In this document: positions 18,250-44,627 of the stretch, one piece after another
How positions within the stretch are numbered: position 1 is the first letter of the stretch
How the letters are laid out: every line of letters begins with the position of its first letter
Assembly: GCA_029238175.1 (NCBI GenBank)
Contig: JAQWGO010000122.1
Coordinates: 1-53,042 of the forward strand
From: Henriciella sp.
Lineage (GTDB): Bacteria; Pseudomonadota; Alphaproteobacteria; Caulobacterales; Hyphomonadaceae
Reading direction: 5' to 3'
DNA length: 53,042 nucleotides
Made by a program: the position numbers and the translations under genes
Notes under the pieces: generated by a model
Seen by the model: only the letters and a program-made list of their open reading frames with translations
Told to the model about the DNA's origin: nothing
Databases searched by the model: none

Positions 18250-18357
18250 TGTTAAGGTCTCGGACACAACCCGATCTTTCCTCCGATTGGGCGTTTCCTC
18301 CCCCAGACGAGACCGCACTTTAAGCCCGGCGCGTTCAAACGCAGCCGGGCTTTTTTT
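18250..18357 (+). ncRNA. Candidate anti-Shine-Dalgarno small RNA (copy 1)
   Basis: Between the LysR gene and ttcA lies a compact structured element. An outer stem GGTCTCG (18256-18262) / CGAGACC (18308-18314) encloses an inner hairpin CCCGATC (18270-18276) / GATTGGG (18285-18291) whose loop is TTTCCTCC. A second TTTCCTCC run (18294-18304) is left unpaired before the outer stem closes. A strong intrinsic terminator follows: AAGCCCGGC (18322-18330) / GCCGGGC (18344-18350) and seven T. Exposed CCUCC motifs complementary to ribosome-binding sites are the hallmark of the alphaproteobacterial CuckooRNA/CcsR and alpha-r14-type small RNAs. Expected role: block translation initiation of target mRNAs. 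A second, similarly built element is at 42851-42945. Confidence 0.65.
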
Positions 18358-18390
18358 GTGTGCTAGAGGCGTCAGCGCCCCGGACCGTAC

Positions 18391-41368: not shown

Positions 41369-42067
41369 TCAGGCTCTGTAAGGGTCATCCCGATTAAGCT
41401 GTCCAAGATAATCGCGAAGCATGGCGACGCGGTGAGGCCTGAACGAGCGCTCTGTTACGGTCATCTTGTGTATGCGATCGATTCGAAACGACCGGAACGT
41501 CTGGCGCAATTCACAGTAAGCGAGCACGACGAGTGAGCGATCAAAAAAGACGATTGCAAGCGGTTGAATGTCTCTCTGCGTTTGGTTTCCGTCAACATCA
41601 CCATAGTCGATTGCGATGACGCGTTCTTCTCGTGTGGCGATACGCAGTTCAGAAATATCTATGCTGATTTCAGGGCGGCAGTTAAATCGTTTGGCATACA
41701 GTACCGCATTTTCAAACTCGCTACGCATCCGTGCAGGAAGTGAGGCCCTCAGTTTGGACAACGCATTGTCGGCCGCCTTTGCTAATACTGGGTCCGCAAC
41801 TTGCACCACTTCGCGTAGACCCAGAACCAATGCTTCCATCTCGTCCCGGCTGAACATCATGGGTGGTAGGGCGGGGTCTTCCTGCAGCGTATAGCCATAG
41901 CCTGCCTCGCCATCAATTAGCGCACCAGAGCGGCGAAGCGCATCAATATCGCGGTAGATTGTGCGCGGGGACACGCCCAGCTCTACGCCTAACTGGCTGG
42001 CTTGCACGGGCGCGGGCAGCGTCCGCAGACACTGCATCAATTGAAGAAGACGATCACTGCGGGCCAT
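41369..42067 (-). CDS. YafY-type HTH/WYL-domain regulator
   Basis: The 232-residue protein has an N-terminal HTH_11 ([45 protein letters not shown]) and a C-terminal WYL domain (RRDIQ...[20 protein letters not shown]). WYL proteins are ligand- or DNA-damage-responsive transcription factors. It is divergent from the GST gene at 42149 with a palindrome plus direct repeats between them. It also precedes scoA by about 70 nt in the same direction. Confidence 0.87.
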
Positions 42068-42086
42068 GAGCTTTGTATACTATCAC

Positions 42087-42109
42087 CTACTGACAGAAAC
42101 TGACAGTAG
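42087..42109. promoter_or_regulatory. WYL-regulator operator candidate
   Basis: CTACTG (42087-42092) and CAGTAG (42104-42109) are inverted copies. The same stretch contains two direct CTGACAG copies (42090-42096 and 42100-42106) at a 10-bp period, about one helical turn. It lies between the WYL gene start (42067) and the GST gene start (42149). Confidence 0.55.
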
Positions 42110-42148
42110 AGCGATGCTAGGGAGCGAGGCTTAGCAAGGAACGAATGT

Positions 42149-42847
42149 ATGATTACCCTCACTATTTACCCTGAAAGCTTTGGCGAACCGTCCGCTAGCC
42201 CATTTTGTACTAAAGCACTGTGCATGCTGAAGGCGACAGGTCTCGCGTTTCAAATCGACGAGTCGCCGGACCCCAGAAAAGCGCCGAAACAGAAATTGCC
42301 GATGATCGAGCATGATGGCCACATCATTCCAGATAGTGAGCAAATTCGCGAGCATATTGAGGCGGCCGCTGACCATGATTTCAACGCTAGCCTAAGCGAT
42401 GAGCAGAGAGGTATTGCCGATGCAGTGACGCGGATGCTGGAAGAGCACTTTTACTTCGCCGTGGTTGCCGATCGATGGGCGAATGATGCGAACTGGGAGC
42501 ATGTGAAGAAGGCATTCTTCTCCGATATCCATGCGCTTCTTAGGCCGATAATTACCCGGTCAATCCGGAAGCAGGCATTAGGTCAATTGAATGGACAAGG
42601 GATTGGGCGTCATTCTGAAGCAGAACGGTTCGGTCGTGCAAGCCGCGACGTACTGTCAGTTAAGTCGGTTTTGGGCGATAAGCCATTCCTGTTCGGTGAT
42701 GCGCCAACGGCCGCCGATTATACGGCTGTCCCTATGTTGCGAGCCTCGATCGCGACGCCTGTTCCGACCATGCTTAGCGATTTTATACGCAGTGAAGATA
42801 AGATTATGAGCTATCTCGAGCGGGGCAAAGAGGCGCTTTATCCATAA
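42149..42847 (+). CDS. GST/metaxin-like (Fax-type) thioredoxin-fold protein
   Basis: The 232-residue protein has an N-terminal GST-like thioredoxin fold (ITLTIYPESFGEPSASPFCTKALCML, then KLPMIEHDGHIIPDSEQIREHI) and a C-terminal all-helical domain (KPFLFGDAPTAADYTAVPML). The pattern is that of the failed-axon-connections/metaxin-like branch of GSTs in Alphaproteobacteria. Substrate unknown. It is divergent from the WYL regulator. A structured region with CCTCC motifs and a strong terminator follows its stop. Confidence 0.82.
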   Translation: MITLTIYPESFGEPSASPFCTKALCMLKATGLAFQIDESPDPRKAPKQKLPMIEHDGHIIPDSEQIREHIEAAADHDFNASLSDEQRGIADAVTRMLEEHFYFAVVADRWANDANWEHVKKAFFSDIHALLRPIITRSIRKQALGQLNGQGIGRHSEAERFGRASRDVLSVKSVLGDKPFLFGDAPTAADYTAVPMLRASIATPVPTMLSDFIRSEDKIMSYLERGKEALYP

Positions 42848-42850
42848 TTT

Positions 42851-42945
42851 TTTGCAACTCGGCATGAGAGTTTCCTCCCAGAACTCTCCTCCTCATGCCA
42901 GATGTAGAAAAGAAAAAGGGCGGCTCGATTGAGCCGCCCTTTTGT
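42851..42945 (+). ncRNA. Candidate anti-Shine-Dalgarno small RNA (copy 2), possibly 3'-UTR derived
   Basis: Just after the GST stop lies an element built like copy 1 at 18250. An outer stem GGCATGAG (42861-42868) / CTCATGCC (42892-42899) encloses an inner hairpin AGTT (42869-42872) / AACT (42882-42885) whose loop carries TCCTCCCAG; the strand back to the outer stem carries CTCCTC, leaving a second CCTCC-like motif exposed. A terminator GGGCGGCTC/GAGCCGCCC with flanking A and T runs follows (42915-42944). No good separate promoter is visible, so it may be processed from the GST mRNA, as reported for CcsR RNAs. Assignment to the CuckooRNA/alpha-r14 class is by motif and layout only. Confidence 0.6.
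42915..42944. terminator. Bidirectional intrinsic terminator between GST/sRNA and groEL
   Basis: AAAAGGGCGGCTC (42915-42927), a 4-nt loop GATT and GAGCCGCCCTTTT (42932-42944) form a 9-bp GC stem with A/T tracts on both sides. Leftward it ends groEL, with five T at the end; rightward it ends the GST/sRNA transcript. Confidence 0.85.
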
Positions 42946-42965
42946 ATTTTGAAAAGCAGGTTGGA

Positions 42966-44627
<1,662 letters not shown>

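Follow-up and report, generated by a model that had tools for sequence, protein, structure and literature searches.

A candidate anti-SD regulatory element in the 3'-UTR of a GST gene of Henriciella

Layout and predicted fold of the GST 3'-UTR

The window analysed here is a stretch of 53,042 nucleotides from Henriciella sp. (contig JAQWGO010000122.1), which is contig C144 of a genome, G000, of 2.85 Mb in 181 contigs. It carries a GST gene with its stop codon at 42845-42847, and the stretch of interest, 42851-42945, starts three bases after that codon. The neighbours of the element are GST and groEL, the latter on the opposite strand (Table 1). An earlier note had described at this place an outer stem, a hairpin with a CCTCC loop, a second exposed CCTCC and a terminator after the GST stop, and both the sequence and the RNAfold prediction agree with this layout. 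The fold of another element, at 18250-18357, likewise matches the description that was given of it. On the plus strand of the window, TTTCCTCC occurs at three sites, all of them inside one or the other of these two elements.

In the MFE fold, the inner stem GAGUUU/GAACUC encloses the loop CCUCCCA (42874-42880). For the window's genome, the CCUCC of this loop is predicted to be unpaired at a mean of 0.93 and the bulge UCCUCCUC at a mean of 0.68, while the UUU of UUUCCUCC pairs as part of the closing stem, the whole motif being 0.65 unpaired. The CTCTCC of the second conserved motif is 0.80-0.98 unpaired in seven relatives, compared with 0.45 in the window's genome. In three relatives (G009, G015 and G019) the MFE fold contains a UUCC/GGAA pairing which partly closes the motif, and there CCTCC is 0.64-0.65 unpaired. 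The layout as a whole is similar in five relatives and partly retained in two more, and a terminator is found downstream on the GST strand in all eight aligned sequences.

The whole stretch folds with a z-score of -6.4 against dinucleotide shuffles. For 42851-42906 alone the value is -2.75, with 1/200 dinucleotide shuffles equally stable, and in single genomes the element without its terminator ranges from -1.1 to -4.7, i.e., its stability exceeds that of shuffles only moderately. Folding alone would be weak evidence for the element, and it is conservation that decides. No sigma70-like promoter was found in 42000-43100, thus an independent transcript is unsupported.

Table 1. Positions of the features discussed in the text, in window coordinates
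Feature	Position	Strand	Basis
GST gene, host mRNA, 232 aa	42149..42847	+	ORF; Pfam GST_N_4 (5.2e-24), GST_N_3, GST_C_6
Candidate anti-SD element: basal stem UUUGCA/UGUAGA, outer stem, inner hairpin, bulge	42851..42908	+	RNAfold
Outer stem GGCAUGA/UCAUGCC (42861-42867 with 42893-42899)	42861..42899	+	RNAfold; equivalent stem of other sequence in relatives
First seed UUUCCUCC, inside GUUUCCUCCCAGAA (42870-42883)	42871..42878	+	6/9 orthologues; G019 has C for the first U
Second conserved motif ACUCUCC; 5' part paired in the window's genome	42883..42889	+	Invariant, 8/8 aligned
Bulged UCCUCC, the second CCTCC of the earlier note	42887..42892	+	G000 only, 1/9
Intrinsic terminator, 13 bp, bidirectional with convergent groEL	42914..42943	+	GST-strand terminator also present in the eight aligned sequences
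Separate double-seed anti-SD sRNA candidate, between lysR and a convergent ttcA-like gene	18250..18358	+	Fold; ttcA-side in relatives

Conservation among GST orthologues

A search of the 28 other genus genomes found a GST orthologue in eight of them, with 54-62% identity across residues 1-232; together with the window's own GST these gave a set of nine. Among their 3'-UTRs, (T/C)TTCCTCC is present in 6/9 and ACTCTCC in 8/9. The one sequence without ACTCTCC, from G013, was left out of the alignment of eight 3'-UTRs, across which this motif is invariant while the stems vary. The 4-fold degenerate sites of GST, compared between the window's genome and the others, are saturated, with 18-45% identity. 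Conservation of the motifs against such a background supports the proposal, made from the window sequence, of a structured RNA with an anti-SD motif in the GST 3'-UTR. The importance ascribed to both CCTCC motifs is not supported, as the second CCTCC is present in 1/9 and the conserved second motif is ACUCUCC. The earlier note had also considered that the exposed motifs might be lost in relatives to leave a bare terminator hairpin; this is not so for the first motif, kept in 6/9, and is so for the second CCTCC (1/9). The loop of G021 and G014 lacks the seed, so that of the two motifs only ACUCUCC remains in place; UUUCCUCC or UUUCCUC sits between the outer stem and the terminator instead. In G013 both motifs are gone, and the GST frame has a TAG near its end.

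Support for the stems was assessed by counting pairs over a few related sequences, with a structure written by hand on the five best alignable relatives. RNAalifold, applied to the eight-sequence alignment, returned a different, mixed fold with a covariation term of -0.23 (almost none). We put this down to poor alignment of the stems of G000, G021 and G014, and for this reason the counts were made on the five alignable relatives. There, 97.9% of 145 cells are paired in the proposed structure, and pairing falls to 55-60% when partners are slid by one column. Both partners have changed in four pairs (one lying in the terminator), a number reached by 4/500 column shuffles. Covariation is 0.186 versus 0.113 in shuffled columns, with 0/500 column shuffles as high. 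One of the five measures, further pair types, is no better than shuffles (293/500).

Outside the genus, both CCTCC and CTCTCC are absent within 200 nt of the stop in 17 GST loci; these come from a list of 29, of which 20 were covered, the three others being the genus's own. Six distant GST loci within the genus (L018-L023, 32-35% identity) were inspected and not counted as orthologues, and two partial ones (L024, L025) were left out. In 2/6 of these distant loci, L019 (G008) and L023 (G026), GCGTTTCCTCC lies just past the stop of the GST homologue.

Distribution of the seed and comparison with known RNAs

The two-motif pattern TTCCTCCN{2,8}ACTCTCC occurs in 12/105 family genomes. Six of the 29 genus genomes carry it, once each and always at the GST 3'-UTR. 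In six genomes outside the genus it is found at chance-like places, five in long ORFs and one (L062), by our own reading, at the RBS/start of an opposite-strand gene. By this distribution, the two-motif form of the GST element is a single-copy RNA that only part of the genus possesses. The 18250-18357 element is spread otherwise: its core TTCCTCCGATTGGGNGTTTCCTCC, allowing up to two mismatches, is present in 70/105 family genomes, including 25/29 in the genus, with no control matches. It adjoins ttcA in G013, G014, G021 and G022, and a one-seed form is found in G025. The view that the window holds two copies of one design is thereby not borne out, since a core found in 70/105 family genomes stands against a two-motif GST form found in 6/29 genus genomes. 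The 18250-18357 element is the better supported sRNA candidate, yet a different RNA. In the window, no Rfam match above cut-off was obtained for 18250-18358; nine orthologues among the matches listed score 23.8-30.1 bits with RF00519, under the cut-off.

The seed itself recurs throughout the genome. GTTTCCTCC occurs 32 times, as compared with 3 for the reversed pattern. Twelve of these sites are coding, seven serve as SDs for genes on the opposite strand (in one case a short leader ORF), and the remaining 13 are noncoding, for which the binomial probability is ~3e-6 at the window's 9.5% noncoding share. The gene calls near the sites come from a home-made codon-usage caller trained on 37 window ORFs; L083 and L175, called coding, may be SDs, and L090, counted among the 13, is probably transcribed from the other strand. 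A same-strand terminator lies downstream of 8/13 noncoding sites (L068, L070, L073, L074, L087, L089, L092 and L095), L087 being the 18250-18357 element and L089 the GST element. Thus, the idea of a multi-copy system stands for the seed, with its 32 GTTTCCTCC sites, and not for the RNA, whose two-motif form occurs once per genome. The complete genome G009 has 17 GTTTCCTCCC sites, and among these are positional counterparts of seven of the 13 noncoding sites, namely those at GST, the 18250-18357 element, alphaR8, the leaders of fusA and pspA, the stretch following amt, and the 3'-UTR of hisG (fusA, pspA and amt being named from our reading of the translations). Comparison of L074 with L170 of G009 gave no match, and the other five noncoding sites were not matched up. 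In the family scan, GTTTCCTCCC has at least one match in 104/105 genomes, and G000 has 20, where the reversed pattern gives 1; part of these counts is due to SDs.

Several of the individual sites deserve a separate mention. In L069 (fusA leader) and L072 (pspA leader), GTTTCCTCC lies in the 5' leader at positions matching those in G009, and in such fusA-like and pspA-like leaders it could possibly exert anti-SD control in cis. L070 (G000:C12:9157) and L092 (G000:C152:10360) are intrinsic terminators with the anti-SD seed in their own hairpin loop. L174 (G000:C172:36008) and its similar equivalent L162 in G009 contain a short leader ORF, MRPTVVLVIRHLR, with the SD GGAGGAAAC; by our own reading, it looks like a leader peptide by which a branched-chain amino acid operon would be attenuated.

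The same seed is known from the alphaR8 sRNAs. The Caulobacter members SisA-D are described as sharing the single-stranded core seed UUUCCUCCCU, with multiple copies of alphaR8 sRNAs in Caulobacterales and other genera, and SisA is reported to repress mRNAs (8/10 tested targets) and to be countered by the sponge CrfA via a G/A-rich stem-loop (PMC12559287). As given in that source, UUUCCUCCC makes up the first nine bases of the alphaR8 10-mer. The window has 9/10 of the 10-mer UUUCCUCCCU, as UUUCCUCCCA, and its relatives also differ at the last position. As far as the description in PMC12559287 extends, the GST element resembles alphaR8 (MmgR; SisA-D; RF00519) in having the core anti-SD seed UUUCCUCCC close to a hairpin and upstream of a terminator, and a Rho-independent terminator does close its 3' end at 42914-42943. 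However, the alphaR8 seed is single-stranded downstream of a weak hairpin, whereas the GST-element motif lies in the hairpin loop and closing stem within a longer outer stem, and is followed by the second motif ACUCUCC. Linkage to FGase, usual in single-copy members of the family though not universal, is likewise lacking: the element lies in the GST 3'-UTR with groEL on its other side. For 42700-43000, RF00519 gave no plus-strand match at E up to 5 and 16.9 bits on the minus strand, against a cut-off of 41, and of the seven matches in G000, none of the six listed is in the window contig. A genuine alphaR8/MmgR sRNA of the same genome, L073 (G000:C24:2858-2935), served as the positive control with 44.3 bits; it adjoins the N-formylglutamate amidohydrolase (FGase) gene, the linkage described for this family.

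Two other groups of RNAs invite comparison. The alpha-r14 (NfeR1)/cuckoo RNAs are described as bearing several anti-SD motifs in loops on stems of variable sequence (PMC10746234, PMC7143759), and in these published descriptions the likeness to the GST element consists in several exposed anti-SD motifs and variable stems. However, alpha-r14 has three hairpins with identical unpaired CCUCCUCCC, unlike the GST element with its one loop, one bulge and different motifs; CCUCCUCCC is absent from 42851-42945. CcsR1-4 of Rhodobacter sphaeroides (RF02791), named after the CCUCCUCCC motif according to the Rfam title, are reported to be processed from a 3'-UTR (PMC8625941), and are similar as C/U-rich motif RNAs of such origin. 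They differ, in the account given there, by the host gene ccaF1 (DUF1127) and by being four homologous RNAs, and RF02791 scores 14.7 bits (E 0.4) for the GST element versus a cut-off of 65.3. Membership of the GST element in alphaR8, alpha-r14/cuckoo or CcsR therefore fails on defining features. Its position after the stop and its terminator would fit the class of 3'-UTR-derived sRNAs. Anti-SD sRNAs are an already known kind, and the GST element would be a variation on them. In the open-access literature, we found no sRNA study in Hyphomonadaceae and nothing relevant on small RNA in Henriciella.

One of the noncoding seed sites, L090 (G000:C147:8994-9009, plus strand of the contig), draws attention by its opposite strand, where a hairpin, GUUUCUGGGAGGAAAC, lies 36 nt past the stop of hisG (Pfam HisG), with a hisG-strand terminator after it. 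An exact match to the 16-mer of this hairpin is present in 68/105 family genomes and 27/29 in the genus, with no control matches, once per genome save for one genome with two; in an order-wide sample it occurs in 49/299 genomes, one of the 49 being outside the family. At 13 hairpin loci, inspected by eye, it lies 35-49 nt past a long ORF (tested as HisG at L090 only) and is followed by a further hairpin with a T run. The hairpin is perfectly complementary over 14 nt to the GST loop, over 12 nt to alphaR8 and over 12 nt to the 18250-18357 element, and the respective duplex energies were matched by 0/500, 8/500 and 0/500 mononucleotide shuffles of the hairpin. This complementarity makes it a candidate sponge of anti-SD seeds, although in principle it could be read from either strand. 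It resembles CrfA, described in PMC12559287 as having a G/A-rich stem-loop complementary to the anti-SD seed; the possible analogue of CrfA here would be this hairpin and not the GST element, the likeness being drawn from the description and not from sequence. Rfam gave no match for L090 at E 0.01, and no paper linking hisG, sponge RNA and sRNA was found in the open-access literature.

Possible roles of the GST 3'-UTR element

On balance we lean towards the view that the GST 3'-UTR bears a trans-acting anti-SD regulator with the seed of the alphaR8 (Caulobacter SisA) sRNAs. What is seen directly for the element is its sequence, predicted fold, conservation, some covariation, and the recurrence and identity of its seed. 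From these we infer processing or release from the mRNA, binding of Hfq, the targets, and repression as the sign of regulation. According to the proposed mechanism, the structured, terminator-capped end of the GST mRNA would probably be released, or would act in place. The motifs (G)UUUCCUCCC and ACUCUCC, in or beside the hairpin loop and the bulge, might then pair with RBSs such as GGAGGAAAC of other mRNAs, and pairing with RBSs of this type would block ribosome entry. Since the GST RNA has as its first seed the one found in the alphaR8 (MmgR/SisA) sRNAs and in the 18250-18357 RNA, it would add to a pool of anti-SD RNAs whose targets overlap, and would tie this pool to GST expression. In the window, a complement to the seed of at least 7 nt is found in the RBS region of only 3/55 called genes, which counts against this reading, and one of at least 6 nt in 10/55.

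More particular targets were also considered. A single conserved target complementary to both motifs was rejected, as the search of both strands finds only the GST loci in the genus. A minus-strand gene whose SD, GGGAGGAAAC, would be the loop read in reverse complement, with an ATG 4 nt further on, was dismissed too, because in the five loop-keeping relatives, read by eye, there is no close ATG. The groES and groEL RBSs have a complementarity to the element of 4-5 nt.

The loop could instead be a landing site for a G/A-rich RNA, be it a CrfA-like sponge or some other sRNA, which by pairing with the GST 3'-UTR would control the GST mRNA or would itself be titrated by that mRNA. The 14 nt of perfect complementarity between the hisG 3'-UTR hairpin and the window's loop speak for this, with a duplex of -32.4 kcal/mol to which no hairpin shuffle in 500 comes as low, and so does Caulobacter CrfA, which is described as pairing with the same seed and lowering the RNA that carries it (PMC12559287). 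However, the hairpin is also complementary over 12 nt to both alphaR8 and the 18250-18357 element, as suits a general sponge; in seven relatives the perfect match with the GST element shrinks to 7-12 nt; and a hairpin present in 68/105 genomes contrasts with a two-motif GST element present in six, all in the genus. We consider such a role unlikely.

We would give rather little credence to action in cis only, with the structure serving to protect or terminate the GST mRNA, and the C/U motifs being bound by Hfq, Rho or a nuclease instead of pairing with SDs. The position directly past the stop codon and ahead of the terminator would suit it, as would the retention of ACUCUCC even where UUUCCUCC is lost, but the recurrence of the alphaR8 seed at unrelated noncoding loci speaks against it. 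Autoregulation via GST's own RBS was rejected, no consistent excess complementarity being found: the longest complement is 4-5 nt in all nine orthologues, and the pairing clearly beats shuffles in just 2/9 (5/200 as low, compared with 21-109/200 in the others). This poor pairing disfavours one form of cis action, not all. That we are dealing with an ordinary terminator region with a chance C/U loop seems very improbable. Much of the folding signal is indeed supplied by the terminator and the loop motif is absent in 3/9 orthologues, but conserved motifs and compensated stems are hard to reconcile with chance next to 4-fold sites as diverged as those of GST.

With the trans-acting reading of the GST 3'-UTR in mind, we put forward a wider picture, as a tentative suggestion that we would not yet wager on. 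A single seed, (GC)GUUUCCUCCC, exactly complementary to GGAGGAAAC RBSs, may be common to several unrelated RNAs of Henriciella and its family: alphaR8, the double-seed RNA beside ttcA, the GST 3'-UTR and other terminator-linked loops. The conserved, RBS-mimicking hairpin of the hisG 3'-UTR may be their common sponge, and mRNA tails may compete to set the translation of a shared regulon. If true, this would extend the theme of anti-SD sRNAs beyond stand-alone genes, to the 3'-UTR of a GST gene, and would suggest one seed common to many unlinked RNAs and countered by an mRNA-borne decoy. It would also make testable why bacteria retain several RNAs with the same seed, as each host gene might contribute a signal of its own to a common pool.
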